NCBI GenBank assembly: GCA_033220425.1
Contig: CM065653.1
Location: 3,782,001 to 3,846,000, forward strand
Reading direction: 5' to 3'
Source of the DNA: Lepraria neglecta
Taxonomy: Eukaryota; Ascomycota; Lecanoromycetes; Lecanorales; Stereocaulaceae
Length of the DNA: 64,000 bases
Shown here: piece after piece, positions 4,046 through 34,701 of the stretch
How positions within the stretch are numbered: the stretch's first letter is position 1
Layout of the letters: every line of letters begins with the position of its first letter
Made by a program: the position numbers and the translations under genes
The notes under the pieces: model-generated
Told to the model about the DNA's origin: nothing
The model's input: the letters and a program-made list of their open reading frames with translations, nothing else
Database searches by the model: none

Positions 4046-5976
4046 TTACTTGTGAAGCGAGAATCTCTTCTTCAGCTGCGAAACCAGTGACGGCGACTTC
4101 TTGCGAGAGGATGTTCCGCCGAAGGTATGACATGAGGATACTGTATCAGATTGGCTTGACTGAGTCGTCTCTGTGGCGCCGATACTACCATTTTCGTTCG
4201 CCAGAGTATCACACTGCTCTCTTAGCGAACCCGCAAACTCTGACGATGATGATGTGGCGATATGAGACTGAGGGTTTGCATGCCAGACTTCGGTCTCATT
4301 CGGATGCGCATGAGCTGGGATGGTGCCCTCGACATTCTCCGACAGTGTGGACACCAATTCAGCCTGGTTTTCGAGGGGCAAACTCTGAAACCTGGCCTGA
4401 TCGATATGGTATATGGGGAAGAGTGGTGGGTGTATGCTAGTATTGTTGTATTGGTATCCCATGACTGCAGTACCATTGAGATTTCGATCAGAGACTTCAG
4501 GCTGAGACATATATGAGAGGTATGGTTCAGGAAAGTGTGTCTCATTGAGCGACATTGTTTGAACCTGATATTGCGGTATGATAGCATTGATTTGTGAGCC
4601 GGTAGTTGACGATACCTGGCGTGGAGGAGCAGATGATTCGACCGCTCTGTTCCCGAGTTGCGTAGGAGTGCCCATCGAGAGGCCTGGCTCATCGTAAGTA
4701 TGATGGCTCCAATCATAGATACTCTCGTTGAATGCGGCTACAGCAAGATCTTGTGCGGGTTCCTCAGCCTTCTCAAGTCTCAGTTGTAGAGATTGACTAG
4801 TTGATCGATCCCAGCTAAAACTACAATCTGTGTAGTCTGAGGAGACGTCTCGCCACGCCATGTCCACTCCAGGCTGGAGCAGTAAGCCTTTGATGACTTT
4901 GGTCATATCCCAATTAAAAATGTCCTCAGATATCCGGAAATGATCGAGGTCAATGTGGTTCAGCTGATCATTGATGGTGTAGAAGACTGCAATGCAGAAG
5001 CCGCACGACAAGTATCTCTTCTCAAAGGCAAATCGCCACTGTTCCGCTAATTTGAGGCTATCTGGAACGCCGTGAACTTCCAGGTGCTTGATCAGATTTG
5101 CCTTTCGTGTGTAGCTCCGAGGTCTCGCTAAGCAATGCTGAATCGAGTGTGCGGTAAGATGATCTTGGTCAGGGGCTGGTATACCGCAGAGGACGCATTC
5201 TGGACCGGTATCCGCAAATTTCACAGGTCCCTGCGGCATGCAAGAAAATATTGTTTCATGCTCTTTCATATGCCGTTTCCATCCATCGCAGGTATAGATA
5301 GCCTTTGGTTTTTCACATGTCATACACCAGTGCGTGTGAATGCTGTTGGCAGAATTGGATGAAGGGGAGGCTATAGTGCTGTAGGAAGGCCGTCTCGAGG
5401 ATTCAAGAGAAAAATCTCCTTGGCTGATAGAGGTCCGTAGTGTATCACCGCTAGCATTCCTGCTATAAGGAGTTAATGGGCCTAGAGAACTGCTGGAAGA
5501 TTGTGGGAGCGAATTGAAAGAGCAATGTCGCGTTGAATACGACGGAGCTGCGCTTGGCAGGGCGTTGAAACTATCATTGGCATATGATGCATTAAGATCA
5601 TTGTCCTTCTCTGCAGCAGGTTGTCAGCTTTGTTTTGATCTAGTCTTTGCGCAATCTAAGACTGACTGGGAGAGCGGCTAGTCCGTAGCCATGATAGTAC
5701 AAGACTATCAGGAAAGTCCTTCAATATTGAGAGAGCGTGAATATGCTGACTAGAGAGAGTGCAAGAAGATGCGAAGTGCTGATAACCAGGTTGAAGGGAA
5801 GGAGGCAGGGTCAGCCACGCCTGGACTTGCTCGTCGCTGAATTCCTGGAGAATGACACTGGCTGCTCTCTGTGATGGGGATGGGAATGTAGAAGTATCCA
5901 ATTCCTCAATTGACGCAGCGAGGATTGCGTTCTCATGTGACTGATGCTCCATGATGTGCGATGTATACCAGCCCAA
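4046..5976 (-). CDS. ZF-A: C2H2-like zinc-finger protein, paralogue 1 of 3
   Basis: Two exons are joined by a 56-nt intron (5611-5666; donor GTCAGT, branch GCTGAC, acceptor CAG): exon 1 5976-5667, exon 2 5610-4046, giving about 624 aa, or 616 aa from the second ATG at 5952. Exon 1 holds two helical-looking repeats ending in AWL/SWL (ILQEFSDEQVQAWL; ILKDFPDSLVLSWL). Exon 2 has a Ser-rich stretch, then Cys/His modules: HWCMTC...TCDGWKRHMKEHE, CVLCG...HLTAHSIQHC, and a clean C2H2 finger CGFC-x12-H-x4-H. The C-terminal half is low complexity. ZF-B and ZF-C share this architecture and intron position, which supports the model. It is presumably a nuclear DNA- or protein-binding factor; the target is unknown. 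The stop may be premature (see spacer 3511-4045). Confidence 0.8.
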
Positions 5977-7482
5977 TTGAAGTTTAAAATGTTACCAGCT
6001 AGCCCATCCGCTCTGCCATTTCTAATCATAGCAGACCCTCGAGTAGGCGAAGAAAGGGAAAGCTCTTCGAGCTATGAAGACTGCTCAAAAAAAGGCTACT
6101 GACGAGATGCGGCTCTGCAAAAGTTCAACAATAGCCAGTGTCGAGTTCGTGAGGCTACGAATCCAAAATTTAGTCTGCGAACCCAAGGGTCGTGATCCAG
6201 CTCAGAGCATGCCGTGGAGTGCGTATTCTCAGACCTTAATGTGATCTTTGGGCCAAAGGACCTGCCTGATCTTTGAGAGTCCAATTTGAGGAGTGCTGGC
6301 CCCCAGCTTAGAGGGGTTGAGAGCCGCCATCCCTGCCTCTTGGCAGCCCGACTAGTATAGCTCCGGCCAAGACACAGGTTCCCGCGGCCTCTTGGGGGTG
6401 ACCAGCGAGGAAGATCCTTGCATGCGACGTTGCCTAGGATTCGACAATGCTCATTTGACTTCCAAGCTCTGCAGGGGGGATTGCAGAAAATCGCATCAAG
6501 ACATTGAATTCGTTCTTGTTCAACCTCAAATACTTGTTTGCCACTGACGGGAAGACTGTGTTGCCTATCAAAGCAGAATCTTGCGAGGCGATCTACGATG
6601 CGTCGCAATCTAAGCAGCCAGTAGATTACACAAACGAGTTTGCAAGGCATGTTGGACTCCCTGCGACTCGTTGTACCTTCTGGTATAGTTTCACCGGTTC
6701 AAGCGTAACAATTTTGCCTGTCTGCTGGAAGTTCGACTCTTCCACAGACCCTAGGGTGGCCTCTAATACCTAATAGGTGTTGTGGTGTCATAAGTAAGGT
6801 ATGCCGCACAAAAGGCTTTGCAGTAAAAGCAAGCAGGTTGTAGTGACTGGCACTATGTAAGGCCAAAATTCGATGGAGGAGAGATTAAAATGCAGGATTA
6901 AGCGAGGCGAGAATGCGAGAAGGCGCTATACAGCGATAATGCTTTATCCTTCTTCGAGCTCAGCTGTGGCCAGATCTAGGCCATTCGATTCGTTGCAGGT
7001 AGAGTGGCCCCTGAGTACGCGCGACTTGGCCCCAGACTGATGCCTGCAGCTAGTATGCGGTGCCATTAATTAGCAAGAAATGGACTGGGCATCCTGCTAA
7101 ATGTAGAAAGTCCAAATTCGCGACGATCAGGGTCTTTCATATGCTATTCCAGCCAATCGAGCTCTCCCAAAACTCGACGCGAAGGCGCGAAGGCGGGGAT
7201 TACCGGCTGTCTGGCTCCCTCGCTGGTGCGCGCGAAATGCACCGCCGTGAATGACGTGGTCCCGATAATGGAAAAAGTGCAGTCCGGCCATTGATATACC
7301 CCTTCAAAGACCACTGTCGAAGATGCCTTGAGTAAACATAATAAGCTGCATTCTCTCTGCCTCTCTGTTCAAAAAACCTGACCATCCCAGCTCAAGGGGT
7401 CTCCAACTCAGCCTTGCCAAATCATACCTTCTCAAGCCTTTCTTTACGAGACCTACGCTTCCACGCCTAATTGAACATCACC
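5977..7482. other. Intergenic region between ZF-A and SSP-1
   Basis: This is the divergent upstream region of ZF-A (minus) and SSP-1 (plus). Open frames here are short, overlap on both strands and show no recognisable domain. A TATA-like GATATACC lies at about 7294-7301, upstream of SSP-1. A strong hairpin at about 6719-6752 (GTCTG...CAGAC around a TTCGACT loop) resembles a tRNA T-arm but has no matching tRNA body. Confidence 0.4.
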
Positions 7483-8005
7483 ATGAAGCTCACATCAGTT
7501 TTTGTATTCCTCTTTGCCTCTATAAGCTCTGCCCTAAACCTCTTCACCTATCATAATGGTCCTAGAATTGGCAAATACCACATGCCTGGAAACATCTCTG
7601 GGGATTGTACGCCGTGCCGCTGCGTCGCCGGCCGTCTGGCTCTCTCGAGTCACCACAATCTCCTGAAACGGTCACATAAGCCCGAATCTTCGATCTCACC
7701 ACCCACCCTGGCTCCACCAAACAGCAATGGCAAAACCAATAACACTCAAATCGCGGACCAGGAATCCACGCTGCCATCCTCATTGCTTACTCTCGAAAAT
7801 CTAATCATTGTTGTCTTTCGCGCTGTCATTACCGTTCTCACCATATTCAATGTCAACATCACATGGAGAATTCATGGCAAGTTCTGATATCTCCTTCCAC
7901 CTCTCGGCCTGCAGCCAATAACTTCTGCTAGCACACAACGCTGAACATCAACTTCGTGGCGGCCGAGAAGGTAATCACAACGCAAGAGGCGGGTGGCCAG
8001 CCTGA
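7483..8005 (+). CDS. SSP-1: small secreted protein, founder-like copy of a four-member local family
   Basis: Exon 1 is 7483-7876 and exon 2 is 7932-8005, 155 aa in total. An upstream in-frame ATG at 7471 would add four residues. The N-terminus is a signal peptide (MKLTSVFVFLFASISSALN). It is followed by a small Cys cluster (DCTPCRC), a dibasic KR, a Ser/Pro/Asn-rich linker, and the family block FRAVITVL...NVNITWRIH. The intron (7877-7931, 55 nt) needs a GC donor (GCAAGT) with acceptor CTAG. The spliced end, ...HQLRGGREG...GGWPA, matches the ends of the other copies (RHGWPV, RHGWPA, RYGWPA). Without splicing the frame would stop at GKF*. No known family is recognised. It is likely secreted or membrane-associated through the hydrophobic C-terminal block. 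Confidence 0.65.
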
Positions 8006-9710
8006 GCGAAGGTCACATACCAAATTCAACTCAATCAAAGCATTACCTACCGCCAGAGCTCCGCCGCGAAGGATGTATCATCAAGTTGGACCAAGGCATT
8101 ATCGTTTAGCGCACCAACTCTGAAAACCTAGTTCACCGTCACCTGAGCTCGAAATCTCATGTCTTGTACTCATCATGTCATGGTGCCCATATTTTGTGAT
8201 TTTGCTGCGTCGTGTAAACATATATGGAGCTCTAGATACTCAGTGCAGCGAGGATATTCGGAATTGGTCACACCTTTACATATTCAGAACATTCTTTCAA
8301 TGCCTTCAGTTGATGGTTTTCCTACCGCTATTATTTTGCAGGGTCTTGAATTTAATAACCAGGAATCCAACGAGCTCTTCACAGATGGAGATATGCTCTA
8401 GATAAATGGACTGAAGGTAGGGCACACGCTTAGGGTTGAGCGGAAGACGGCCATGTCTCATGCCTTCCAGCACGGTCGGGCCGGGCTCGTCAACTTGGAG
8501 GCTGAAACGAATCACACTTCTCAAGTGGTCGAAGAAAATCGCGTCCAACTTTGATATGAACGCCAGGTAGTTTTCTCGGGTATTGATGCGTCAGCCAGCA
8601 ATAACTTGGCCAATCTGCAAAATTGGCATCAGAATGTAATTGAGTATACCAAGCCAATATCCTCTCGATTTTCTATCCTCGTCATCGAACCCTAGTTCCA
8701 AAATTACCTCGTATCAGAAGGAAGAGAGAAGCTGAGTAATGAATTCTCTCCTCTGAGGGAAGTACTCAATTTGTAAGCTCTCAGCTCCCTCGCACTGCTC
8801 GCACTTTATTCGGCGCGACGGAGTTCCTAGAGAGCGAAAGCCCAAGAGGATATAACGACCAGACTCGCTCCGTATTATCGCAAAAGCGAGCACAACCCAT
8901 TATGCTGCTGTTGTTGTGGATTCGGTGCAACGCACTTTTTAGAGATCGAATTTCCAGGGGATGAAATGACAAGATTTGCTCCGCATAATCGAAAAGGCGA
9001 GCACAACCATTATGCAGTCCCTTTGCAGGATTCAGTAATCATCGGGGTAGCGAGCTGATGTACCGGAAACTCGTTTGACAGACTCCGCTGTACGAGATAC
9101 GAATCCGAGAATGCTGACGCAGCAATGTACATTACTGACGCCTGCTATGTGAGTCGTTCGACAATGGTTTGTCCGCTCTTGGGGTGCTTTTCGACGATCG
9201 CGATCGAACGAACTAAGCAGCCAAACGATCACAAATCTTGCTAAAGGTGGGGAGCAGAGTTATGCTATCTCCGCATGCCGAACCTCCCAGGCTGTGGCTG
9301 AGTCCTCGAACCGAACCCTTGTGCGTGAAGCCTGCAGGATCAGTACTCCATAACTCGCATGGAATACCGAGTGCCAGCCAGTACGAGTTCTCAATTTCTA
9401 CGATGCTTGCTGAGCTGTCCCCGCCATTATTTAAAAGGAAAGAGACCTCGGCTGGGGAGGCAACCACCACCACCCAGAGCCACGTAAGGCAGAGCTTAGT
9501 TGCGAGAATGGGCATAAGGATCACAGTATTCCCTTGGAGTAAAATTACCTGTGGACAATTATTGTTGGACATTCTGATGCACGCCTTATGCAGCACTCGC
9601 TCTCTACAAACCCGATCCACAGCCTTATCATACGGAGAGAAAAGGGATGTTGAACTGTAGCAGCCACTTATGTCATTCAAACTTCAACTACTCCCCTGCT
9701 ATGTATGGTA
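8006..9710. other. Intergenic region, no convincing gene
   Basis: Only short, mutually overlapping open frames are present. On the minus strand, 9213-9515 could encode a peptide with a signal-like start (MPILATKLCLTWLWVVVV), but an equally long frame overlaps it on the plus strand and no paralogue exists in the array. The stretch contains the degenerate duplication listed at 8828-9049. Confidence 0.35.
8828..9049. repeat. Degenerate tandem duplication, two units of about 111 bp
   Basis: The unit near 8828-8938 and that near 8939-9049 align along their length. Both contain CTAGAGA/TTAGAGA...CGAA...CCA, then GCTCCGNATNATCG (starting 8867 and 8978), then GCGAGCACAACC and CATTATGC. The spacing is 111 bp. 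The first unit also has a small hairpin TCGCAAAAGCGA. It is not coding in any clear frame. Confidence 0.6.
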
Positions 9711-9720
9711 CTATATAAAA
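9711..9720 (+). promoter_or_regulatory. TATA box upstream of SSP-2
   Basis: CTATATAAAA stands about 100 bp before the signal-peptide region of SSP-2 on the same strand, a plausible core promoter position. It is a retained promoter of a gene that now looks broken. Confidence 0.4.
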
Positions 9721-9807
9721 GTGGGAGATTAGGTATGAAAACTCTGCTTGCTAAGGGTCTAACCCTATGCGGTTGGCGCGCTGTCACATGATAGCTACCC
9801 TTCTCTC

Positions 9808-10254
9808 GGAGACCGCTAGTCTTCTTCTGTGCGATCCTAGCCGCAACCCATTGCCTCTCCGACAGACTTCCACCTCGTGTGGATACTGAACACAGTGAAA
9901 CAGCCCCAACTCCAGTACTGCTTGACGAATCGCCTCAATGCACGTGCGTTATTAGTCGACTTGTTCGCAGACTCACTCAGGGAACGAGCCAGGAACACCA
10001 CGACATATCCATATCACCTGAGCCGGGATAACCTTCAGCTCCGCCAAGCAGTCCACAGGGTAATACAGCGAGTGATCACATCTATCGCGCGGTTATAATG
10101 GCCCTCACACTCTTCAACGTTAATATCACCTGGCGAATCCACGGTAAGCCTCAAGTCTTACCACGGTATGTGATACCGTGGAATTTTAACCACGGTAGCA
10201 GCTTTGAATGCTAGAGGCCGGCGTGCGCCTGTTAGACATGGTTGGCCTGCGTAG
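9808..10254 (+). pseudogene. SSP-2: second copy of the small secreted protein family, start codon lost and one nonsense codon
   Basis: The frame FFCAILAATHCLSDRLP... corresponds to the signal peptide of SSP-3, but the place of its ATG reads CGG. It then has QCTCVISRLVRRL, DISISPEPG, an in-frame TAA (within GGATAACC, about 10035), and the family block YRAVIMALTLF...NITWRIH. Splicing a 58-nt intron (10144-10201; GTAAGC donor, TTTTAAC branch-like, GTAGCAG acceptor) gives the second exon 10202-10254 ending RHGWPA and a stop. Except for the lost ATG and the TAA the copy is in one frame. The same TAA occurs in SSP-3, so it predates their duplication. Confidence 0.7.
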
Positions 10255-11570
10255 AGGCCTGCTGACGGGCATGAACCATCTCAACTCTTAATGCCTATTA
10301 AGAAGATGTGTGGGGTCAGCATACTTGCGGGAATGAGTGCGATGACACTACAGTGCGATAACGCCAGAACCTTATCATGTTTGTATAGTGCGAATGAAGA
10401 GCGAGGTGCATGTATGTTATGCTTGGCAAAGAGCCTCCTTTCGGGACAACCACAGTCAGATCGTGCTTAACGAGGCATCGATACGTTTCTTAGACAGCCA
10501 CACGAATACTGTTGGCTTCAGGATAGCGCATTGTATAGACAGACAATGGTTAGATGGGCATCAAAGAAGGAGTACTGCGTCCTTGAATGGAGACTGACCT
10601 CCGCAATAGCTTTTCTTGCGAGGCGGCGACGTGAACCAGCTAAACACGTTGGGCCCGCATAATCTTCTCAAGTATTGAACGGACAAATCCAAGCCTCATG
10701 ACACACATCATCTGTATTAATGCGCTCCATCGTCTCTGTCCAGGATATATCAAACTCTCCACTCAGTGGTTAGTCGTGGATATTACAAACCCAAAAGTTT
10801 GGCTTTGGTGCGAGCACCTTTTTTGTATCACAAGTTCACAAGGCAGACAAGAAATATGCGGACCCCGGTCTTTGAATACAAACGTTAACGGGTGTATTCA
10901 ATACAACCCAAAATGGCGAAATGCCAGCTTTCATTAGAGGATATGATTAGATATTATCCAGAATATCCCCAGGCTCTTGCTAAGCACAGTATATCACTAT
11001 GCAGCACCCAGATCTGATCAACAGCATCCTATCGAGCAATCATATCCTCGTCATCTCTCCTCCAGGGAGACTGTCTCTATATATTCGTTTGTGGTCAGAG
11101 CATCGACCAGCTGATGCGACTCCAGAGCCAGCACAGATGGGAATCAAGGTCTCCGCCGGTCGTCGTCATCGAAGTCATAGTGTCCAAGCATTGACCCAGT
11201 AAGTGCAACTTCAATCCAGTCGCTGAAAGGATCGAAGACTCCTCCCGAGAGCTTATCATCATCGAAGTCATGATGTCCAAGCGTCGACGCAATAATGCAA
11301 CGCTATCGCTAAATCAAAACATGTTTCCACCTGGGAGAATTCCATCATAAAAGCCATGATATCAAAGCATCGACCGGATGATGCCACTCAAACGCCATCG
11401 CTAAAACGCTCGAGGTCGTAGGACCGTGTCCATCAATGCATTAGTTGTACAATCAAAAAACCAATACCAAAGAACCTACAGCCAAATCAGCACAGGGGCC
11501 TCGTATCTAAGTTATAGATAATAATGCAACTTACCTTTCACCTTCAGACCTTAAGCGGCTTGTGAAACCT
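10255..11570. other. Spacer between SSP-2 and ZF-B; left part duplicated beside SSP-3
   Basis: About 10255-10600 aligns with 17497-17790. Both contain CTTAATGCCTRTTAAGAAGATG and then a short frame with similar residues (VCYAWQR/VCYARQK, SQIV.NEA..RF.DS). This is the non-coding arm of a segmental duplication. The 11095-11420 part holds the imperfect repeats listed separately. No gene is called. Confidence 0.5.
11080..11420. repeat. Imperfect repeats containing CATCGACC / ATGTCCAAGC
   Basis: At least four diverged units occur: GGTCAGAGCATCGACCAGCTGATGC (about 11092), GTCATAGTGTCCAAGCATTGACC (about 11175), GTCATGATGTCCAAGCGTCGACGCA (about 11268) and GCCATGATATCAAAGCATCGACCGGATGATGC (about 11352). 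The middle two share TCATCGAAGTCAT upstream. They lie downstream of ZF-B on its 3' side. Confidence 0.5.
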
Positions 11571-13639
11571 CTAAAAGATATCGAAGTCAGAGTCGAAGTC
11601 AGATTCCATTTGGATGTTAGGTGGATTCTCAAAATCCTGCTGTGGCAGTGGCAGTGCTGGAAGAGGCTTTCCCTGGCGAGAATTGGCGCCAAAATCATGA
11701 TTCATTTGTGAGCCCGTATCGCCATCAACAGATGGGGAAGCTAGCATGGATGCACTTTCATAATGATTAAGTTGCTCTGGTCGAGGAATACCATGGTGGA
11801 GTCCCGCCGGCGCGCTAGCGAATGTAGAAAGTGCTTGACCTGCATCAATATATTGGTCTATAAGCGAGGCTTCGCTTGCATTGAAATGGTCTCGGTCGTA
11901 CGAATTGTAGCTGGGGTGGAAGCCGGGATTCAGCGGCTGCGTCCTGGTTGAAGAGGCAAAAAATGACCATGGTTGCTGGAGCATATGTCCGCTGGTATCT
12001 GAGAATGAAGCCGAGTGCGTTGTAAGGCCGGCCAAAGAATCTTCCGTTGCAAACGGGCTTTTGAAGAGAGCTGTCTGACTTGGTTGTGGAAATTGCGACC
12101 CGCAAAAGTCCAGTCTAGAAGTGTTGACATTGTTCAATGGTGAGACTGAAGCACTTCGTTGTGCAAAGGTTGCATTCGGTGTGAGGCTCATTGTAGACGT
12201 CAGCGCGGCATGGGCCACACCTTGGAAATCGGAGTTTGAATCAAAGTCCATCTGTTGTTCGGCAGATACCGCGATGGGCGTCGTGTAGCCCTGACGAGGC
12301 GTGTTAGAGGTATTGGCGCGTAGCTGGAATGCCGCTAATGCAAGGTCTTGTCCACACTCCTCGCCTGTTTCCAGTCTGAGCTGCAGTCCTTCTGCAGTTG
12401 GCAGCTCCCAGCTGAAGTTGCATTCGAGCAACGTGGGGTGTGATGCCAGGAGATGTTGCCAAGCATTGGTGACCTTGGGTTGTAGTAGCAAGCCTCTAAT
12501 CACATTCGTCAAACTCCATTGGTCCATGACCTGGCCGTGGCTCCAGTGGTCGTGGTCGATGTGATTTAGGCGATCCGTTAGGGAAGCGAAAAGCTTGACG
12601 CAGAATCCACAGGAGAAGGCATTCTTGTTAGGAGTATATCGCCATCTTTCAGCGAGCATAGATGCATCATCGCTTGAGATACCATGAGTTGCCAAATGTT
12701 TGACCATGTTTGGCTTCCTTGTTCTAGTCAAGGGTTCCTTTGACGGACCAGCGCACGAGTAGGCTCGGTGTTCCTGGAGGTGGCTCGGACTTGGCCCTCG
12801 AAGGCCACAGAATACGCATTGCGGACCCAGTCCAAGATCTTCGAGAGGGCCGTGTGGCATACACGCATAGACGGTCTCATGCTCTTTTTCATGCCTTTTC
12901 CATCCGTCACAAGTATTTATAGGGTTCTTGTGCTCGCCATAAGTGCACCAATGGGTATGTTCATCTTCTTCGAGGTTGAATAGACTGGCTTGGCCCAAAG
13001 AGCTCCTCGGAGAGCTGTAGGCTGTAGCGCTACTGTAAGGAGAGGACGGCCCAAACGAACTGATTGAGGATCTCAGGCTTGACCTTGCTGAGCTCTTGCG
13101 TGTAGCACGAGAGAAGGACGTAGTAGAGCGTTTGGAGGCAGACCGGCTGCTTCCGTAGGACCTGCGTTCGAGGAGTTGTTTGTTGACATTGACGTTGTCT
13201 GCAGGCAACGATTAGCTGTTTGAGATGCTGAAGTGTGCGTGAGAGCGTGAGCGGAGAAGAACTAACCCGCGAGAAGGTCGTACCGAAGCCACGCCAGAAC
13301 ATTACCATTATGACAGTCCTTCAATGTGTTGAGTGCATCGATCTGCTCGCTCGAAAGACAACCAGGGCCCGAACGAAGCTGGAAGCCTGGTTCGATAGAT
13401 CGAAGCAGTGTAAGCCAGGCAATGACCTTGTCTTCTTCGACATCCTTGAGTACTGTGATAGCTGCCTCCTGCTCTGGTGTTGGGATAGAAGAAGGCGTCT
13501 TTTCCTCATCGTCTGTGTTTGTTGTCGAGCTTTCGAAAGAGCTAGCAGGCTTCAGAGTGCAAGAGAACTCGGGCAGTTGCGACCGGGTGCTGACTAATTG
13601 ACGATCGCTCTGCGTTGGGGCTGAAGCCTGAAGATCCAT
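11571..13639 (-). CDS. ZF-B: C2H2-like zinc-finger protein, paralogue 2 of 3
   Basis: Exon 1 is 13639-13267 and exon 2 is 13198-11571, separated by a 68-nt intron (13199-13266; GTTAGT donor, CTAAT branch, TGCAG acceptor), giving about 666 aa. A frame-open ATG at 13774 exists, but the 13639 start aligns with ZF-C (both soon read QLVST). Exon 1 encodes the duplicated AWL motifs (VLKDVEEDKVIAWL; TLKDCHNGNVLAWL). Exon 2 begins ADNVNVN and has a Ser-rich region. Its Cys/His modules are HWCTYG...TCDGWKRHEKEHE, where the second Cys of the first module is replaced by Gly, then CVFCG...HLQEHRAYSC, KHLATHG and the finger CGFC-x12-H-x4-H. The end is acidic (FDSDFDIF). It is closer to ZF-C than to ZF-A. 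Confidence 0.83.
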
Positions 13640-16600
13640 GCGTAGATCAGGTTGGGTGAGGGATAAGAGCGACGAATTTGCACATCGGATGAAAGAAGAA
13701 AATTGGTCCCGAATGACCCGTAGAAGAGAAGCGCAAAAAGGGAAGAGAACTTTTGTGACATCTGAAGGGGACAAGCTGACGTTTTACTACGAGCATTTGT
13801 TATGGTGGAGGCTTGGTGGAGGGATGGCAGTGTAACCGGCGGGGTGGCAGGCGCTAATGGAAAATCGAAACCGTGAAGATTTATTGGTCGTTGATTGTTC
13901 CTGAAGCTTCGAGGCTGGCAGCCAGGAGGTGACAGACCTGTGAGTGGTGAGGCGATGATGGTGTCAAATCGACATTTTTCAAAGCATTCAGATCCGTTCT
14001 TACTGTACTGGCTCGGCTGGATCCTCATCTTCGTTCTTTAATTGACCATTACTAAAGCATCGACCTCAAAGTTGCGTGGCCCTCCCTACCAGAGTCCCCC
14101 AATCAAATGCGAATTGCTTTCGAATACTAGGTGATCAAGGTTGTGCGGCGCCTCGGACCGAATCGTGGTATGCATCGTATTTTAACCAGAGGCACTGTGG
14201 ATCAGCAATAAATAATTGGATCGTATGTAAGCTGATTAAGGTCGACGAATATTTCCAATTCTGCCTTTAGAAGGATTCACCCCCCAAGTTGTCACACCCA
14301 CCGAGTTGTCAGCCCTGTAGGGCTGAACATCAAAATTTTGCAAATTTTTATTGCATATTTAACTTATTCAACACCAAAAACTAGTAACTCTACTATATCT
14401 AAATTTACCGCCCGCAAGGCGTCAGAAGAAGATTATAACTCTGCGGTTAAGGGTGACTACTACGGATCTACAGCAAAGACGGTGGAAGGCGCGGGGCGAG
14501 GACGAGCAGCAAAGCTCTGGGGACCTTAAGAAGCAACCAATAGGAAGAGGGCAACGTATAAGGAAGCCCCGCAAGGCTAAGATATAGCTAGCAACCTGAA
14601 TGGAGTCCAAAAAGTCCAAATCTGCAATAAAAATTTTCAGATTTGCAAATTTTTGATGTTCAGCCCTACAGGGCTAACAACTTGGGGGGTTCTAGTTCGG
14701 CGCCGCCGAAAGATTTAGGCCGCCAATGCTGCCCAGTCGTTCCTTGCCACTTTCTCACTCATCAGTACATTTTCTCCCCTGATACAGATTGAGACTCAAA
14801 CTAAATATTTTTAAAAAAGCCTTTATTGATAACAATATGCTTTTCTCAAATTAGCTTCTCGGCATCTAGAGTCTCAATACGGAGTCGAAGGCAAAGGCGC
14901 ATCTTCCATCCGATCCCCCGAGAGGCGTGAATGGGCTTGGACATCATCTCGTGGGAATCGACGTCACTCTCAACTTACGACCTAGGGAGTTTTTGCAAAT
15001 TCTTTCAACAGCAGAAGAGATTCAAAAGCCGCAGCGGCCTAGGATCGTCGACACGCTCAATGATCACTGTCATTTATTTGATACGAACGCCGGAAGAGAG
15101 GACATACTTCAGCATTACTGAAACGAAAGCTCCGCAATTTTATCCACCAACCAGGATGAGGAGCTCGTGGGGCTGTCGACCGATTGGGTTGAGGTGCTAC
15201 TCTTCTCTTCGAATTCTGGGCTCCGAAAACGTTCCAGGCTGAATTGATTATTATCATCGTTGTAGCGCAATCATCAGGGAAGCGCAGCATACAATACTGG
15301 GACAACATCAATTAAGGTATTGTCAATGTGGACATAGCCCTTAATGTCCTGCACTGCTGCTGAAACCTGCTTTGCTAATGGGGGCAGGCTCCTTGTAACA
15401 TTCTTCTGATGGTCAACCACTCGCTTTATCGGTCGAAGTCCACATCTCAAAAGGAATGAGTCTTTCACCGACTTAGGTGTATGCATCGAGAGTTGCGTCT
15501 TAGTAATCCCTAGAATCTCACTGATATATGCCAAGGCTGACACCTCTGGATAGCGCACCATGCCGAACAGCGACTCCGCCTAGCGAGGGATAAGATCCGC
15601 CTAGATCAGAATCGATGGCCCGTGTAACACCCACAGCAGCACCGACGCTATCTTCCAGACTTGAGACATCCGCCGGTGCCGGATGTTAAGTGTTCATGCC
15701 AACGAGATTCGTCTTCTAGCATTAGCTACAAACCCATAGACATGGATCCTCGCGAACTGAGCTTGATCATTGACACTTTCCAGCATCTGCTATCTAGATT
15801 CTGCTTTCCCTTCGATTCATGAACAACCATAGACGGTACCGATACATATCATATATGCTGCATACCGTCCAATCATCCACCTGCAGCATTCATCAACCTC
15901 TGATATAGTCTCAAAATGTTTGACACTTGGCCGGTTGTATAAAGATGTAATGACTCGGTTTGCCTAATTTGGTTTAGGTAGATGACGAAGTGGTATGTTA
16001 GATTCGATGAAATAGGCTGCTTCAAACTACGGCCGCGTTAAAATTCGCATATCAATGTCACTACACCGCCCCCAGTAACCACCTACTACTACGAGCATAT
16101 AGACCTGCGCTCCCTAAATCTGCTTTGAGGAGGGGGAAAGGTTAATCGTCTTGCGCAGCCTTGCGGAGTGAGCGTGTTCTCTAACAGAAGAGGTCGTCGT
16201 ACCAAATATGGTAATGTTCCGCTTATCATGCTGACCAATGGGCAAATGGTAAGCGTTCTATTGAGAAGCGTGACCGCAGCAGTAGACTTGGCACCGTGGC
16301 GTGTCACCCATATGAGGGTTGTTCGAGAGCCGACCTAAAAATGTATTGTCATAGGAACCCGCTCGTAAGAATGGGCGTAATCGACCGTAATTTTGGCTAA
16401 GGCAAGGGGAAAGGCGCCCTATGCCGCCCAATCCCGACGCGGACTTTGCTAAAATGGGGTCCCATTTTGGGTTGTTGCAGGGGTTTTCCCGCGACAATAC
16501 AACAAATTAAAACCTTACAAGGCGAATGGCTATTACTAGCCCAATCGGCCCCATTACACTGCCACTGAGCTTGTCGGATCCAGTGCTGAAAACCAAACAT

Positions 16601-17046
16601 TTTATTGGCTTGTTTGACTCATCAGATTGCTTCGCAGGCAGGCTATTGATCTCGCATCGATGTGGCTTACACCTGAGCCCCTTGAACAGCAAGAAGGATG
16701 TTGGCTACTTGCTAGCTCCATTGCACACAATGCAGGAGCCTAACAGCTGATGTGTCCGCGAATGTCTTACCTATTGCAAGTATTTGCCGTCTCCCATGTC
16801 TTTTGACCTTCCTTATCTTCTCCTCCGTTTCCCTTGCGACAATTACCCCCCTCTTACTTCATTATTGCATAATTCTCGGGCTCTTTTTACTCTACGAGTG
16901 GGTCTATTGTTGTATGACCATCATGAGGCTCGTACTTTTTTTTGTACTAGTCCTTGGTTCTGTCGCTTTTCCGTTGCAGCTCTTCCCTGAGGACCATGAG
17001 CCGAAAATCTCGGGCTACAAAATTTATGCCAACTGCGTGCCTTATC
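13640..17046. other. Long spacer between ZF-B and SSP-3
   Basis: It contains the inverted-repeat element at 14279-14690. On the minus strand, 15274-15561 has an open frame (ITKTQLSMHTPKSVKDSF...GYVHIDNTLIDVVPVLYAALP) that continues one frame over as PDDCATTMIIINSAWNVFGAQ. This looks like a frameshifted gene fragment, but its family is not recognised. The rest shows only short frames. The region from about 16900 resembles sequence upstream of SSP-2. Confidence 0.4.
14279..14690. mobile_element. MITE-like element with nested terminal inverted repeats
   Basis: The left end begins ACCCCCCAAGTTGT and the right end is its exact reverse complement ACAACTTGGGGGGT. Further in, AGCCCTGTAGGGCTGAACATCAAAA on the left is matched by the inverted copy ending at about 14675 on the right, apart from one or two mismatches, and GCAATAAAAATTTT closes the inverted arms. 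On the left an extra 17 bp (CACACCCACCGAGTTGT) separates the two parts and partly repeats the end motif. The 412-bp interior has no transposase. No clear target duplication is visible. It is probably a non-autonomous DNA transposon; the superfamily is unknown. Confidence 0.7.
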
Positions 17047-17496
17047 ATGCAAAAGGTTTTGCTCTTCGTCTGTGCAATCTTTGCTGCCACCCATTGCCTC
17101 TCCGACAAACTTCCAACTCGTGTGGATGCTGAGCACAGTGAAGCAGCCCCACCTCTAGTACTACTTGACGAACCGCCTCAATGCACATGCATCGTTAGTC
17201 GACTCGTCCGCAGACTTACTCACTCACGGAGCTCGCAACACCATAACATGTCCATGTCACCCCAGCTTGGATAACCATCATCTCCGCCAAGCGCTCTACA
17301 GGGTAACACAGCGAGTGATCACGTTTTTCGCGCCATCATAACGGCCCCACGCTCTTTAGTATAAATAATACCTGGCGGCTCCACGGTAAGCCTCAAATCG
17401 TACCATGGTACGTGATGCCTCGGAATTTTGACTACGGTAGCAGCTTTGAAGGCAAGAGGCCGGCGTGAACCGGTCAGATATGGCTGGCCTGCGTAG
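17047..17496 (+). pseudogene. SSP-3: third copy of the small secreted protein family, truncated by a stop and a frameshift
   Basis: ATG at 17047 opens a 75-aa frame with a good signal peptide (MQKVLLFVCAIFAATHCLS), then QCTCIVSRLVRRL, ending at TAA 17272-17274. The homologous frame resumes after this TAA and reaches FRAIITA; one extra base then shifts it before NNTWRLH. Splicing a 48-nt intron (17396-17443; GTAAGC donor, TTTTGAC branch, GTAGCAG acceptor) would give exon 2 17444-17496 ending RYGWPA and a stop. It is very similar to SSP-2, including the TAA. It could still express a secreted 75-residue product lacking the family C-terminus. Confidence 0.7.
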
Positions 17497-18058
17497 AGGT
17501 CTGCTGATCGATACGTCAACTCTTAATGCCTGTTAAGAAGATGCGTGAGACCACCATGCTTGCGAGAACGAGAGTGGTGATACCAGAACGTTATCATGTC
17601 TGTATCGTGCTCATAAAGAACGAGGTGCGTGTATGCTATGCTAGGCAAAAAGTCTCCTATTGGGACAAATATAGTCAGATCGTGCCTAATGAGGCACTCA
17701 CTCGTTTCATGGACAGCAACACAGATCCTAATAGCTTTGGGCTAGTGCACAGTATAAATAAACAACGTTTAGATAGAGGTTAAGGAAATCACGCTGCGTT
17801 ATATAACCTTATCTCTAATTGTGGGATACCTCGCTATCATACTGGAACAGCCCCAACGCCATCGCTAATAGCTTCGGCATGTAGAATGAAAGCCTGGAAA
17901 TCTATTCGTTACACAAACATTGAATGATGTGATGACTATAGAAGTGTTAGTACGAGACGGTAGCAGAACTTGGTTGTCTTTACTCACAACTGTGTATCCT
18001 CCTCTTTGTGGCCTCTCTCATTACTGTGTAGCTTCTTAGACCTGAAATGACCTTGAAG
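17497..18058. other. Spacer between SSP-3 and ZF-C, duplicated arm
   Basis: The left two thirds align with 10255-10600 next to SSP-2 and mark the segmental duplication. No gene is seen; the short frame here is shared with the other copy but has stops and no domain. Confidence 0.5.
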
Positions 18059-20130
18059 CTAGTCACTGTCCAATTCCATGGAGGATCTGGCCCGAAGCGC
18101 GAATGAATGAGCCTTCCGCGGGTCTGGCAACGGCGGTAACGGCTTCTCTATAGACTGGCGACTAGGGGAATGCATAGGCGACGAGACCAGCGCGCCATCA
18201 GGACTGCGAAAAGCCAACATCTTGCCATTTTCGTGACGATCAAAGACATTCGACCATGAGTTATATTGTAGTTGTTGCTGCTGTCTTTCTGAGCTTTGTA
18301 AAGCGTTGATGTATCCCACACCGGGGTGTGGAAGTTGAGCGACACGGGGCGACCCTCGTGGAGTGGGATATTCTCGGTTCTGTGTCTGGAAACTTAGGTG
18401 CAACTCTGGATTAGCTGCTGAAGCTGCAGGCTGGGGAACATGGAACGACGACTGCGGTAGGATCATGTGGCTAGTGCCATTAGGGAAGGGAGCTGTTGAG
18501 AACGAAGGGTTCCAAGAATAGCCGCTCGTAGACGGACCGTTGAAAATCGCAGTTCGCTCAGTGGAGTAGTTGGAGCGCCTATCCAGTGATTCCGATCTAG
18601 AGGCCGTGGTGTTGCTACATGGCGAGTTTGGCTGGACCCTCAAAGCCCCTCTCTGTTGTATGGTCGATATTGTAGGATTGGTCACCGGCGTGCGCGCTGT
18701 CCTTGTCGGATGATGCCCGTCAAGGGAAGAGACATCGAGATCCATCTGGTGTATCTCAGGATTCGCGACCCCCTGCCCAAGAGCCCCATAGTCGTAATCA
18801 CTAAGCCAATAAGCAAGCGTAGCAAGGTCTATGGCGCTGTCTTCGCCCAACTCTAGCTTGAGCTGGAGACCCTCGGCTTTAGGTAGTTCCCATCGGAGCG
18901 AGGATTCGCCGAACGGAGGGGCCAGATAACTTTCCCACACTTCTTTGACTTCAGGCTGTAGTAACAAACCTCTGATCACGTTAGTCAAACTCCACTCACT
19001 CATGTCCCGGCCATGTTTCCAATGCTCGTTATCAATGTGACTCGATCGGTCGGAGAGTGTGGGAAACAGCTTGACACAGAACCCGCATGAGAAAGCTTGC
19101 TTGTTCGAGACGTATCGCCATTTGTCAGCCAGTGATGAGGCCTTCTCTCCAAAGATGCCATGCAATGTAAGGTGTTTGACGAGGTTGGACCTTCTTGACA
19201 ATGTCAAAGGCTTGCGAGAAGTTCCCGCGCAAGCGAGTAAATGATGCTGATGTAGATGGCTTTGGCTTGGGTTGCAAGCCCCACAGAATGCGCATTCAGG
19301 TCCCGCAGCTGTATTCTCCACAGCACCAAAGGGCATGCACCTATAGACGATCTCATGTTCCCTTTCGTGTCTTTTCCAAGCGTCGCAGGTGCCTATAGGT
19401 TTCGGATGCTCGCAGTGCGTACACCAATGTTTATGTCCAGATTCCTCATCTTCAGGCCCTCCCTCCGGAACATCGGACAATAAGATGCTGCTCCCTAGTG
19501 AGGTTCGGGGGGTGCTGCGGCTTGTGCCATTACTGTAAAGAGAGCACTGGCCGACAGAGCTAATCGACGATCTTTGGCTAGACCTGGTCGAGTTTTGTCG
19601 CGTATGACGTGGCGATGAACCATTGGAACGTTTAGGCTGGGTCCGCTTGCTTGTGTAAGAAGCCGAGTGCTTGCTTACATTGTCTACACACAATGATTAG
19701 CTTTTCCCCTGTAAAGAAGTATTGAAGCTTGGCATCACGAACCAGGTGTGAGTGCCAAGTCGAGCCATGCCTTAATTTCCTCATCATGGCAGGGTTTCAG
19801 CGTTGAGAGCGCACTCAGATGTTGGCTGGTAAGACACCCAGGGCCTGTGGGACCAGCACGCAATTGAGTACCAGGCTGAAGGGACCGAAGAAGTGTGAGC
19901 CAGGCAAGGATGTTGCCTTCGCCGAAAGCCTGCAAGTGGCCAATAGCTGCCCTCTGCTCGGCAGATGGAGAACGAGACGTAGCTCGTTCATCTGTGCTCG
20001 CATCAGTGCTTCGAGAGGAAGGAGGAAGATAGGGCGTCTCCGAAGATAACGAGGCAGATGTGGCTGTTGTGCTGACTAATTGACTAGTACCCATTGGCTT
20101 TAAGGCTGATGATGGACAACCCATGCTCAA
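18059..20130 (-). CDS. ZF-C: C2H2-like zinc-finger protein, paralogue 3 of 3
   Basis: Exon 1 is 20130-19743 and exon 2 is 19683-18059, with a 59-nt intron (19684-19742; GTTCGT donor, GCTAATC branch, GTGTAG acceptor), giving about 670 aa. A second ATG stands two codons in. Exon 1 carries the duplicated motif (HLQAFGEGNILAWL; TLKPCHDEEIKAWLD). Exon 2 starts DNVSKHS like ZF-B's DNVNVN. It has a Ser-rich stretch, HWCTHCEHPKPIGTCDAWKRHE, CAFCGACNPSQSHLHQHHLLAC, KHLTLHG and the finger CGFC-x12-H-x4-H. A WSLTNVIRGLLLQP block is shared word for word with ZF-B. The C-terminus is Pro/Ser/Gln rich and ends in an acidic ELDSD. It converges on SSP-3 and diverges from SSP-4. Confidence 0.83.
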
Positions 20131-22661
20131 TGCAATATGTACGAACGGTAGTGCTAAGTTCGATGATGTTCACTCATTTCTGTGGATCACGCTTCGTTAG
20201 AAGAGATAGTGAGTATTTTTGTTTTTCTGAATTTCGAAAGGGGATGCTGCCTTTTTGCTACAGAGCTCTTGGTCGTGGTGGAATGGCTGTGTTTCAGGAT
20301 GTGGCAGACGCTAACCGAAGCTACGCCTGCTCCTCATGGCAGGCAAGAATTCAGGAGGTGAGAGACTCAGCGGCTGAGTGTGCAACACTATGCCTTATGT
20401 AGACAACAGGATTGTTGCAAGATCGAAGCAGCCAAATCAGATCAATTCGGACAGCCTCATTCACCTGATCGTTGTCGAAGTCGGTCACAATTTCCAATCC
20501 TCGGTCTCAAAAGTTACAGTATCGGTACCAGCGAAGCTCCCGCACCCTAAGCCAACATGGTGTGGACTTGACGCATTTCCTTCTCATCTTTACAGCAAGC
20601 TTAATTTGTAGCAGCTGCCAAAAGCCAAAAGGTATAGTCACGATCGTACAACCCATATTGGATGAGCGGATGGAGCGCCCCACACAGGATCCATTTGTTG
20701 ACACTCGTATTGTGGTGATCGTTGGTGCCCTGCGTCCGCGCAGACAGGATTCCACCACCACTTCCTGAAAAACTTGGCGACTCCTACCGCCAAAATGACC
20801 TGCCCTAAGTTAGCGAGGGTCATTCTCTTCCACCTTCCCTTTCCGGCGCCTGCAGGTCCAAGCCGAGCTGACCGAGCGCCGCTGTCGCCTGATCGCAGAC
20901 AAAAATGCCCTTCGCGCCACACGTACCATCTATTACTATAATAGCCGGCCACGCGTCTAACAGCTGAGGCTGACTACAAAATTGGCTCACACTATGCACG
21001 TAAAAACAACCATAGTTGAGCCTCCATATGTTGTGTTACTCCCAGCCGATCAATATCGAAGACTGCGCAGCGCCACAATCCGGGGCGCATCATGGCTAGC
21101 AGGTCTCCAGAAGCCATTTGTGAGTAAAACACCTCTGCGCACATACGCTATAAGTTAAATTTGTAACCACAAAAGGTTCAAAGTTGTCTAAATCTTCAAC
21201 CCTGCCCGCACAACTATTGTATCAAACATCTTAGTGGTGTGTGTACAGTGACATCGAACAATATAGGGCTGCTCGCTCTTCAGACGCCGCGAGTCTTGCC
21301 GTCTCTACATATCACTCCAGCTGCTCGTCGAGGCGTCAGGGCGTCAAGTCATCAACGAGATGATAGAGAATATTATGGAGGTTGATGTGCATCCCATTTT
21401 GCCTGCCAGGATCGTCTACGGGTGATGCTGTGGGCTCAATTGTCTGGCTTCCTAATATCATGATAAGGCCCTGACCTCTTGAAAACGTTTCATGTTGAAT
21501 TGATGATTTGACGTGCAAGTCAAATTTTCGAGAGTCAGATCGATGGAGTGGAAAATGATCTTGATGCGGTCCAGTTTCTGGCCCCATAACGATCCAGCTC
21601 TGCTGCTCGCAAGAGTGAAATCCAAGGGCTGTCCTTGATGTGCAATAGTAAAGCCTATAGTCAAACTGCCGAGATTTCGATTGGCAGGGCCTAGCCCAAG
21701 GGATTTGCTGGAAACGGCTGGACCGGGACAGAGTGGTCAACGGACATTAGCGCGAGAATTCATCTGCCTCTGAGATGCCTTGCGTACATAAATACGAGAG
21801 CAACTTTGACAACCCGTTGGACACTGCGAGTAGTGACAAGGTCGCCTTGAAAAATTTAGTATGTCTGGTGCCGCAAGCCCTTAGTAGAGAATTCCAAATC
21901 AACTATCAAGATCCCTCGCTCAGACGTCAAGCACATTCCAAGATACAAATATGTGACACTTCTCAAGGTCTCAAGTGAGTTGAGCTCCATTCTTTTCTGC
22001 ATCGACATAAAGTCAATCATCTCATCGCTCCAGACCCCTGCAATTTCAGGACTCACACTGCCGCCCGGATTATTGGAAATGGCGGCCAATTCTTGATCGA
22101 TCACCTACCCGACAAGACTTTTATCAGTTCTTGCACTTTCATTTCCACGGCATGGGCGTTGTTATCTTCGTGGTTGTATGTTTCGTAGGGCACTCAGGGC
22201 GAAGTCAATTGCTTATCGGCTCCATCATTCGCAACGCAGTAGTGATACTGATGTGCGTTGACTTGCATGGTAAATATAAGGAGCCGCTTTCTCCCCTTCT
22301 TCTCGTGGTCTCACATCATTCCCTCGTGCAAAAATCGCTCCAAAACTACAACGCTGCCCATATCTCTTGTCAGAGGGTTCCCTTTACCACATTGGTCCTA
22401 CCTTTGTACGTCCTCCTATTGGCCCGTTGGAACCATTCGAAAGAAAACTGGTTCCAGAGTGTGGAACCACTCTCATCAGCTGGCTACAGCTGGACCCATC
22501 CTTGGATGTAGGTCGTCGGGCCACGTGATGGACCCTGCATACGTTAGTGTGGTGGGTCCAGCTGTAAAAGGTGGGTATACCTGTAACGCACGCAGGATAA
22601 AGAGGGGGACCTCCTCCCCCGCCATGATGGCATTCATTGCCAGCCTTTATACCATACCATC
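20131..22661. other. Spacer between ZF-C and SSP-4
   Basis: No domain is recognised. Around 22225-22266 a frame reads IIRNAVVILM..DLHG and then GTAAAT, which faintly resembles the SSP family block with its splice donor. It lacks the NITWR core and no GWPA exon follows, so it is not called. Other open frames are short and overlapping. Confidence 0.35.
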
Positions 22662-23161
22662 ATGCGCATCTCTATCTCTATCATACTCGCCCTGAGCATA
22701 ACTCAGATAACCTTATCCTCTCACTTCTCAACCCAGCCTGACAAGTTCAGCCTTAGCCTGATCATACATGACAGTATCAACACTCGATACACGTGCACTC
22801 CTAGTCAATTCGCCGTCTCAACCCCTTGTCGCTCGAAGCGGACCCATGAAAGAGACATCTCCATAACGCCAGGCTCCTCGCCAGTGTCACCAAATACCAG
22901 CACAAGTACCACTAGTGGCTTTGCCTCGGGGTCCGAGCCTGGATTTCCCAGCGTCGATGCCATTATTACAAGGGCCTTTCGGGCAGTCATCACCATCCTC
23001 AGCCTGCTTAATATCAACATCACCTGGCGGCTTCATGGTAGGGCACATCCCCTTACAGCCTTGGAACACGCTGACGACTATCAATAGCGCACCATGCAGG
23101 ACATCGACTTCGTCTAGCTCGGGACAACATCTACCTCGACAGGCATGGATGGCCGGTATAA
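22662..23161 (+). CDS. SSP-4: small secreted protein, intact copy
   Basis: Exon 1 is 22662-23037 and exon 2 is 23100-23161, 145 aa in total. The signal peptide is MRISISIILALSITQITLSS. The middle has spaced cysteines (YTCTPS, TPCRSKR), a dibasic site and a Ser/Thr/Pro-rich linker (DISITPGSSPVSP), followed by the family block FRAVITIL...NINITWRLH. The 62-nt intron (23038-23099) has donor GTAGGG, a consensus branch GCTGAC and acceptor TGCAG. Exon 2 reads HRLRLARDNIYLDRHGWPV and stops, matching the ends of the other copies. Reading through instead gives a different tail ending at 23087. No known family is recognised. Confidence 0.68.
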
Positions 23162-32465: not shown

Positions 32466-34077
32466 TCAGACCAATGTGATGATCTGCTGATGGCTAGCAC
32501 TGAACCAAGAACCATGCACGCGGATTCTCCGTCCCAAGGCGCCATGGGTCGATCTCAAGATGCTTCCCTTCCATCTTTTGATGCCACAACTCCATCCCAA
32601 CAGCTGACATTCCCTTTTGCCACTTGCATTAAAAACGCCGCATCGCTCATACATTTCGCCGCCTTGAGCTGAAAGCCTAACGATCAATCCGGCCACCCAT
32701 GGTTCCTTGTATATGTAATGACAGATTGGCAAGCAATAGAACCCTTTACCGGTCTCTTGAGTCTCTGTGGCAAGGTAGATAATGGATGCCGTCACTTTCG
32801 AATTTCTGTGCAGCTCGTAATGCTGAGCTTTGCACAGCTCGACTGCAGTAAGGCTCCCTTTGAGACGAATGAAGCCATTTTCAACCTGGCCTGTGGGATC
32901 CTCGGTTACGGGGATAACACTTGTATCTATAACTTTGACGAGAATATCAGATTCTACTGAACGGTATCGAACATCTGCTTCTACAGATGCCCAGCTCCAC
33001 GAGGGCGCTCGATATAGGTTTGCTCTTGTCGACGGGAGATCATTGGCTTGCTTGCACTCTGGAACATACCATTGTAGATCACTTAACAAATTACGCCTCC
33101 ACAAGCCGGCTAAGTACTCGTCGTCAAGGACTTGTTGCATTCGCTGCGCGATATCAGACAATGCGATTAATTTATCCTCGTGCTTCGTCAAGCATGCACC
33201 CATGTATGATTCCATAATCATTTGCCAGCCGAATTCATCGCTCGGGAGGGATTTGAAATTGAGACCGTGGATCCAACTGGGTATTTCTTTGGATGTGTCG
33301 CAAGCTTGAGTTTCAAGACACCCAGAGAATTTGATCTCTCCCATAATGTAAGACCCGAGGTGCTAAGATACGTTCCTGAAAACACCACCCTCTGCCGGTC
33401 AAAACAGACCTGGATACCCGATCAATCCAAATGTGTTGATCTACCACAACTTAAGATTGATCGGGCATATCATTCCATTCTGACTTAATTATGAGAGGCT
33501 CGATGAGGGGTGTCTCTCGAGCTCGGAAGCCACCTTCGTCGCCATTGGCAGCCGCCGACGCGGCGACGTTACAGAACGAATGCTGATACACCTTCCTCAT
33601 CTGAAGGGCCTCATAACGCCAATCCTCCGTCGAGTCCTGAAAGATGCACGAGTCAATCCAAAGGTACCTAACACCAAGCTCCCGATTTATGGTGAATGCG
33701 TCCTGAAATGTTTTCGGCAAGTCCGCGGGCGAAAAGCCACCTTTTAGGCCTTCATATGTTGATTGGGTGAGTGTAAGAAACTTCGCAGTTCCTCAATAAT
33801 GACTTAGGGTCATGTATGGAGATGTTGGGAGATGATCATGTGTGGCGCGCAGATAAAATTCGGCATCAAAGACAGAGGTCGCAGCTCCTATTTCTATAAG
33901 TCTTGTAGGAGAGTATGCTACCGCGTTGGTAGTCTGAGTGCACTGGGTGTGATCTTTCATGCACATTGAGATCCAGCTTTTGGCTAATTTGAAACAAGAA
34001 TCAGACGAGGTATTAGGCATGATGCTGTGTTCCTTCGTGGGGAATCCTGGATCTCGAACATCAGATTCAGTCATCAA
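32466..34077 (-). pseudogene. HET-domain (heterokaryon incompatibility) protein, decayed
   Basis: The frame from 34077 reads TSPYMTLSHY and then TGA where HET proteins have SHCWG. It resumes in the same frame with GTAKFLTLTQSTYEGLKGG, LPKTFQDAFTINRELGVRYLWIDS, then CIFQDSTEDW, where the usual Leu before Cys is missing. Next come VYQHSFCNVAASAA and a TAA after NDMPDQS (about 33451). The frame resumes with RGWCFQERILAPRVLHYGRDQILW, after which one lost base moves it into the frame starting near 33344 (ETQACDTSKEIPSWIHG). The C-terminal part keeps the family's RAPSWSWASV. Two nonsense codons, one frameshift and one codon deletion make this a pseudogene. Intact HET proteins trigger programmed cell death on non-self recognition. 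Confidence 0.9.
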
Positions 34078-34701
34078 GGGACGAGCACGACCCCTCTAAA
34101 GTCTCGGACCATACCTTCAACAGGACATACGCCATACGATCTGGAGATATTACGATGTCTCGAAGAGACCCTGGGCGGTCAGATGATGATCTCTGGCTCT
34201 GGTTTCAGTAAAATTATTCTCGTTGAATGTACCAAGCTGACCACGGAAGATATTTTGACAAGCAGCACAGAGCATGATTGGAGACGATTTTAGCAGGTCA
34301 AACAGACGGGACTAAAGGCAGCCGTGCTGATGAAATACGGTAGCTGATTAAAGGCAGTTGCGGCCGTCCAGATCAAGGTCCCGGCTTTGGCTTGAGTTGA
34401 CGCTCATCGGGGCGGCGAGGAGAGCCTGAGAACTGTAGCGGGGACACCCAGACTCTGATGTCGCTTTGTTTCTGGCCGGACAGCATCGTAAGATTGTTAT
34501 TGGAGCGTGTGTACCTGTGGTCTTGTCTAGAACAGGCAGCCGCGATGCGTGGCGCCGGGAGCTGTTTCCACGGAGAACCCCAGAACCCCCAACTTTCCTT
34601 GGCGCCATAAACGGCTCCTGCAACGAAATTCAAATCATCCCCTACCACTATAGCGGAATAGAAAGACATGCTACAGTACATCATTCCACCATACTTCCAG
34701 G
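34078..34701. other. Spacer between HET pseudogene and GH3 gene
   Basis: This is the probable promoter of the GH3 gene on its right and the upstream region of the HET pseudogene on its left. No separate gene is seen. Confidence 0.4.

Follow-up and report, generated by a model that had tools for sequence, protein, structure and literature searches.

A tandem array of interleaved genes for putative secreted proteins and C2H2-like proteins in Lepraria neglecta

Gene content and extent of the array

The stretch analyzed here, called the window, is 64,000 nucleotides (nt) of Lepraria neglecta DNA (assembly GCA_033220425.1, contig CM065653.1) corresponding to C8:3782001-3846000 (the genome comprises 42.0 Mb in 11 contigs); C8 coordinates refer to the same contig, and all other positions are counted from the first nucleotide of the window. 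Within it lies the right end of an array spanning ∼109 kb (C8:3,696-3,805 kb) in which two gene families are interleaved, one coding for small, probably secreted proteins (SSP) and the other for C2H2-like proteins (ZF). As the original prediction had it, three ZF paralogues on the minus strand alternate with SSP sequences at four plus-strand places between positions 4046 and 23161, in the order ZF-A, SSP-1, SSP-2, ZF-B, SSP-3, ZF-C, and SSP-4. However, of these four SSP copies only SSP-1 and SSP-4 are open, and a fifth SSP place, a remnant, lies between ZF-B and SSP-3. Nor is the array bounded at position 4046: it extends ∼90 kb leftward from there, 86 kb of this outside the window.

The three ZF genes in the window share one shape, a main exon of 525 to 546 codons and a short upstream exon, joined by a predicted splice, and all three are of type I, one of two ZF types. 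The main exon of ZF-A, at 4046..5623, is a C2H2-like open frame of 525 amino acids (aa), and its upstream-exon frame (5656..5991) carries two repeats with A-W-L or a similar motif. The corresponding frames are at 11571..13211 (546 aa) and 13262..13783 in ZF-B and at 18059..19696 (545 aa) and 19735..20169 in ZF-C.

The SSP genes are smaller and lie on the plus strand. Exon 1 of SSP-1 (7483..7876) codes for a signal-peptide-like start, a Lys-Arg site, and a hydrophobic segment, and is followed, after a 55-nt GC-AG intron, by a predicted exon 2 (7932..8005) coding for a tail that ends in GGWPA. SSP-4 likewise has an open exon 1 (22662..23037), a 50-nt GT-AG intron, and a predicted exon 2 (23088..23161) with a tail ending in HGWPV. 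SSP-2 (9820..10254) and SSP-3 (16923..17496) look broken from their reading frames: both have the same in-frame stop, SSP-3 additionally carries a frameshift, and SSP-2 shows no in-frame start. An extra intron may remove the stop that they have in common. The remnant (15536..15627) consists of an intron end and exon 2, 92 bp that are 74% identical to the 3′ end of SSP-4; its exon 1 was not found. Close to it lies an inverted repeat (14296-14690) with 50-bp arms that are 92% complementary and 295 bp apart, which looks like a small non-autonomous transposon.

Searching the genome with ZF-B revealed 17 C2H2-like ZF places in the array (C8 3,696-3,802 kb), 17 out of 17 on the minus strand, of which 13 have kept a long open frame. 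Six more ZF places lie outside the array (two each on C5 and C6 and one each on C7 and C1), and three of the six carry 6 to 9 stops. A type-II query (ZF4) recovered the identical 23 places. All six outside relatives are also on the minus strand, which is probably a coincidence (1 in 32). For the SSPs, searches with SSP-1, SSP-4, x1, and x3 together with a scan for exon 2 gave nine places, all on the plus strand (C8:3,707.9-3,805.2 kb): x1, x1b, x2, x3, SSP-1, SSP-2, the remnant, SSP-3, and SSP-4. The counts for both families are lower bounds, as the genome search scored the best candidates only. Four of the nine SSPs are open (x1, x3, SSP-1, and SSP-4). Exon 1 of x2 is covered by an open frame 160 codons long, but this copy was counted as broken because it is without an in-frame start and has stops at the expected exon-2 site.

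All nine SSP places fall within ∼97 kb inside the ∼109-kb array, so that they and 17 of the 23 ZF places sit in one stretch of the 42.0-Mb genome. Outside the array, no SSP was found in the same genome at E < 0.05, the best candidates being on C7 (E = 0.08), C3 (E = 0.16), and C4 (E = 0.89). This grouping is not a product of chance, because SSP-4 matches SSP-1 at E = 8e-10 and the nine places are confined to one ∼97-kb stretch. The repeated linkage of the two families, originally proposed from the window, is supported more strongly by the whole genome, in which the SSP places are not mostly away from ZF genes but lie, 9 out of 9, in the ZF array.

The SSP gene model and protein

A possible GT-AG intron of 50 to 56 nt (GC-AG in SSP-1) is found at the corresponding place in all four open SSPs, past a T-W-R-x-H motif (T-L-R-F-Q in x1), and is followed by a tail ending in W-P-A or W-P-V. 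A second exon coding for a basic tail is predicted for the SSP genes. A matrix built from the SSP-1 and SSP-4 tails was used to scan both strands of a 156-kb stretch and found four further places (the remnant, x1, x1b, and x3), all on the plus strand and within the array, with scores of 45 to 65.5, compared to a maximum of 33.0 in 10 random sequences of equal length and neighbor-base makeup. The tails of SSP-2 and SSP-3 were below the threshold of this matrix and were identified by eye.

The predicted spliced proteins of 149, 155, 158, and 161 residues have a common plan. All four begin with a hydrophobic stretch, share a Lys-Arg that aligns among them, and contain a hydrophobic segment (hydropathy of the best 19 residues, 1.66 to 2.20) as well as a tail that is basic (net charge, +2 to +6). 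The SSPs are probably secreted. Their C-terminal part, the hydrophobic segment with the tail, is constrained, judging from nonsynonymous (pN) and synonymous (pS) differences between the copies: pN was 0.25 to 0.38 and pS 0.63 to 0.74 there, compared to 0.34 to 0.55 and 0.69 to 0.80 in the less constrained N-terminal half. None of SSP-1, SSP-4, and x3 has a Pfam match above the cutoff, SSP-1 and SSP-4 have no match in the prokaryote library NCBIfam, and an SSP profile searched by sequence against PDB gave no match up to E = 1.

Kex2 cleaves after Lys-Arg. The SSP may be a secretory precursor that a Kex2-type protease would cut at the conserved Lys-Arg, releasing the C-terminal part with its membrane-seeking segment and basic tail. 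The released product would then act outside the cell or at a membrane, and its target would be a different organism or a second hypha. It is also possible, if somewhat unlikely, that nothing is released and that the SSP is a small single-pass membrane protein with a signal peptide, an outside region holding the cysteines and the Lys-Arg, a membrane segment, and a cytoplasmic basic tail. The hydropathy and tail charge of all four open SSPs would suit such a protein, but a conserved Arg lies within the hydrophobic segment, which in x3 is also short, and the conserved Lys-Arg suggests processing. This alternative concerns the SSP alone and is compatible with any explanation of the cluster.

Two kinds of fungal precursor resemble the SSP in their described features. 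Both the Kex2-processed repeat proteins (KEPs) (PMC6339444) and Ece1, the source of candidalysin (PMC5784256), are secretory precursors with a Lys-Arg site, and Ece1 also has a membrane-active or hydrophobic part. Cleavage by Kex2 at Lys-Arg is supported for Ece1, a different protein (PMC5784256). However, KEPs have a motif repeated between Kex2 sites, whereas the four open SSPs have one conserved Lys-Arg and no repeats by eye. Candidalysin is a peptide bounded by two Kex2 sites, a pair around a helix, whereas no second conserved dibasic site is present in the open SSPs.

The ZF family

Across ZF-A, ZF-B, and ZF-C the spacing C-x2-C-x12-H-x4-H is invariant (C201, C204, H217, and H222 of ZF-B), and it agrees with the C2H2 consensus, C-x2-4-C-x12-H-x3-5-H. 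Fungal families of C2H2-like proteins have Cys/His spacing of this kind and Ser-rich flanks, both of which the ZFs share; the ZFs differ from them in scoring under the Pfam cutoffs, in their irregular fingers, and in forming a large tandem array. None of ZF-A, ZF-B, ZF-C, and ZF2 reaches any Pfam gathering score, and the best match of a ZF profile searched by sequence against PDB had E = 0.35. One relative on C6 (C6:554708-556027) has a Myb DNA-binding domain in the same open frame (25.2 bits; cutoff, 24.4), which fits a nuclear role for ZF. A second frame with a Myb domain ∼3 kb from it suggests a local fusion. With less confidence than we place the SSPs outside the cell, we read the ZF proteins from these features as nuclear DNA-binding regulators.

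Constraint is seen in the ZF cores. In eight out of eight pairs compared, pN was lower than pS; for instance, it was 0.26 against a pS of 0.80 in the cores of ZF-B and ZF-C. For most pairs pS is saturated and therefore no dN/dS ratio (nonsynonymous to synonymous rate) is given; the core of ZF3 and ZF8 has a ratio of 0.13. Diversifying selection was considered as the source of the divergence between ZF-B and ZF-C and is unsupported, the synonymous sites being saturated. A tree was built from 16 open ZF cores (13 from the array and 3 from outside, with the 7 broken copies left out), and 5 of its 13 inner branches were well supported. It pairs ZF-B with ZF-C, ZF3 with ZF8, ZF4 with ZF5, and ZF11 with the copy on C6, and much of its deeper order is weakly supported.

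Growth of the array

The original prediction held that the SSP-2/ZF-B and SSP-3/ZF-C blocks share coding and spacer sequence and that each pair had been duplicated together. The first part stands for the SSPs: SSP-2 and SSP-3 align over 736 bp at 77.7% DNA identity, extending beyond exon 2 into the noncoding flank. It does not stand for ZF-B and ZF-C, which are 66% identical over 508 bp and in 43% of their residues, with no other spacer match in the self-comparison. The gene order, SSP-2/ZF-B/remnant followed by SSP-3/ZF-C/SSP-4, fits an old block duplication. However, copying of the pair as one unit does not agree with the ages of its parts. The synonymous sites of ZF-B and ZF-C are saturated (pS, 0.74) whereas SSP-2 and SSP-3 are 78% identical with the flank included, and these two SSPs are therefore younger or were later homogenized. 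Elsewhere in the array, ZF3 and ZF8 lie in a segmental copy of ∼4.3 kb with colinear flanks of 64 to 73% identity and a synonymous distance of 1.2.

Decay has accompanied this growth. The x1b copy shows the pattern of repeat-induced point mutation (RIP), with CA-to-TA changes at 27 of 106 sites and TG-to-TA changes at 18 of 58, compared to 5 of 90 and 1 of 48 in the reverse direction. RIP was also considered as the source of the differences between SSP-2 and SSP-3, which have no clear direction, unlike those of x1b. The open ZF and SSP copies compared are old duplicates in which silent changes far outnumber those that alter an amino acid. Of the remaining, broken copies, at least one has a RIP pattern.

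Other features lie in and near the array. A young copia-like element, named from its frames, occupies C8:3780459-3785489, inside the array next to ZF-A, and reaches position ∼3489 of the window; its two terminal repeats are 193 bp each and 99.5% identical. This element, the predicted introns of 50 to 56 nt, and the RIP pattern are in keeping with a filamentous fungus; a search for 5.8S rRNA gave no match. The array also contains a GMC oxidoreductase frame (C8:3771702-3773057) and a frame of 279 residues (C8:3701033-3701869) that has a signal-like start and matches nothing in Pfam. A HET-domain gene is found on the minus strand at positions 32469-34095, ∼9 kb past the right end of the cluster; its frame at 33454-33792 matches PF06985 with 64.5 bits, and two other frames scanned gave no match.

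Relationship between the two families

The best explanation that we can offer, held tentatively and at less than even confidence, is a birth-and-death cluster that combines two families, one of secreted and probably Kex2-processed proteins and the other of nuclear C2H2-like regulators. The ZF proteins would control the neighboring SSP genes, and perhaps also one another, and this control would keep both families together. What suggests such a partnership, which the original prediction also put forward, is linkage. SSPs adjoin 10 of the 12 type-I ZFs and none of the 5 type-II ZFs in the array (Fisher p = 0.003, for neighbors that are not independent and ZF types that were set after looking).

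However, several observations weigh against this explanation. First, five of the nine SSPs look broken while five of the six ZFs adjoining them are open, and 7 of the 17 array ZFs have no adjoining SSP, so that an intact SSP is dispensable for a ZF. Second, 10-kb stretches around the three open ZFs outside the array contain no SSP match (best E = 0.32). Third, among six SSP upstream regions the best shared 7-mer was present in four (p = 2e-4; 2,797 words tested), which is unconvincing as a promoter word because so many tests would be expected to yield as much. Fourth, an SSP has been duplicated at least once with no accompanying ZF, x1b being derived from x1 and its upstream DNA, and SSP-2/SSP-3 is probably a further case. 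Finally, ZF-A scores 18 bits against Pfam zf-C2H2 (cutoff, 25.2) and ZF-B, ZF-C, and ZF2 have no such match, and the SSP signal peptides are assigned from hydropathy.

Much of this would be accounted for if the families shared an address and no partnership. An old tandem ZF array, growing by local duplication, would have trapped a small secreted-protein gene, which the same local process then duplicated, and the two would have unrelated jobs. We regard this as a substantial possibility, though short of an even chance. It would explain the copying of SSPs by themselves, the mismatch in age between the SSP-2/SSP-3 split and that of ZF-B/ZF-C, the ZFs with no adjoining SSP, and the outside ZFs with none nearby; and the uniform strands are weak evidence of partnership because tandem copies retain their strand by default. 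It accounts less well for the old open copies in both families, for SSPs being found only in the array, and for their adjoining type-I ZFs only. Between a regulator with its product and simple coresidence, the evidence is about evenly balanced.

A self/non-self or poison-antidote complex is an improbable third explanation. Here the SSP would be a secreted or membrane-active signal or poison, the ZF paralogues would provide recognition or protection, and the copies would vary between strains. The highly divergent paralogues, the many lost SSPs, the conserved hydrophobic segment, the Lys-Arg site, and the HET-domain gene ∼9 kb beyond the cluster are in keeping with it. However, SSPs and ZFs do not pair one to one, and the ZF cores are constrained rather than under diversifying selection. 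Many filamentous ascomycetes carry HET genes in abundance, and a lone one nearby therefore means little. Still more speculative, and given very little weight, is a multispecificity complex in which the SSPs release a membrane-active peptide, particular type-I ZFs set the response or protection, and strains with different sets recognize or harm each other.

Known systems and significance

Neither family has a known name. The original prediction did not recognize them as a described pair, and the present results agree: ZF-A, ZF-B, ZF-C, ZF2, SSP-1, SSP-4, and x3 are all below the Pfam gathering scores, and no paper was recognized as describing the pair among those listed from the open full-text literature, outside which most subscription papers fall. 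NCBIfam gave nothing for the three array proteins scanned, and prokaryote and viral collections yielded no relatives (21, 50, and 12 pattern stretches, none confirmed).

Two fungal systems bear a likeness to the proposed cluster of secreted proteins and regulators. The UhAvr1 cluster of the smut fungus Ustilago hordei (PMC4081816) is a local cluster of small secreted effectors with several paralogues and transposons; in the present array, four open SSPs, taken as secreted by hydropathy only, lie within ∼97 kb. The difference is that only effectors are described there, whereas in the present array the secreted family alternates with another that is ZF-like. In Fusarium oxysporum, the transcription factors FTF1 and SGE1 can induce secreted-protein (effector) genes on the same DNA (PMC5140021), and such transcription factor genes, some in multiple copies, share DNA with secreted-protein genes as the ZFs do. 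Regulation is shown there and inferred here, and the genes are on an accessory chromosome rather than in one tandem array (PMC5140021).

Clusters of secreted proteins are already known in fungi, and what is added here is an unnamed secreted family whose places alternate with those of a ZF-like family and do not extend beyond them. The predicted SSP gene model, with two exons and a conserved tail, is a signature that can be searched for in other fungal genomes. The cluster itself offers a ready-made case for asking whether selection keeps a regulator and a secreted product together or whether local duplication alone accounts for their proximity.

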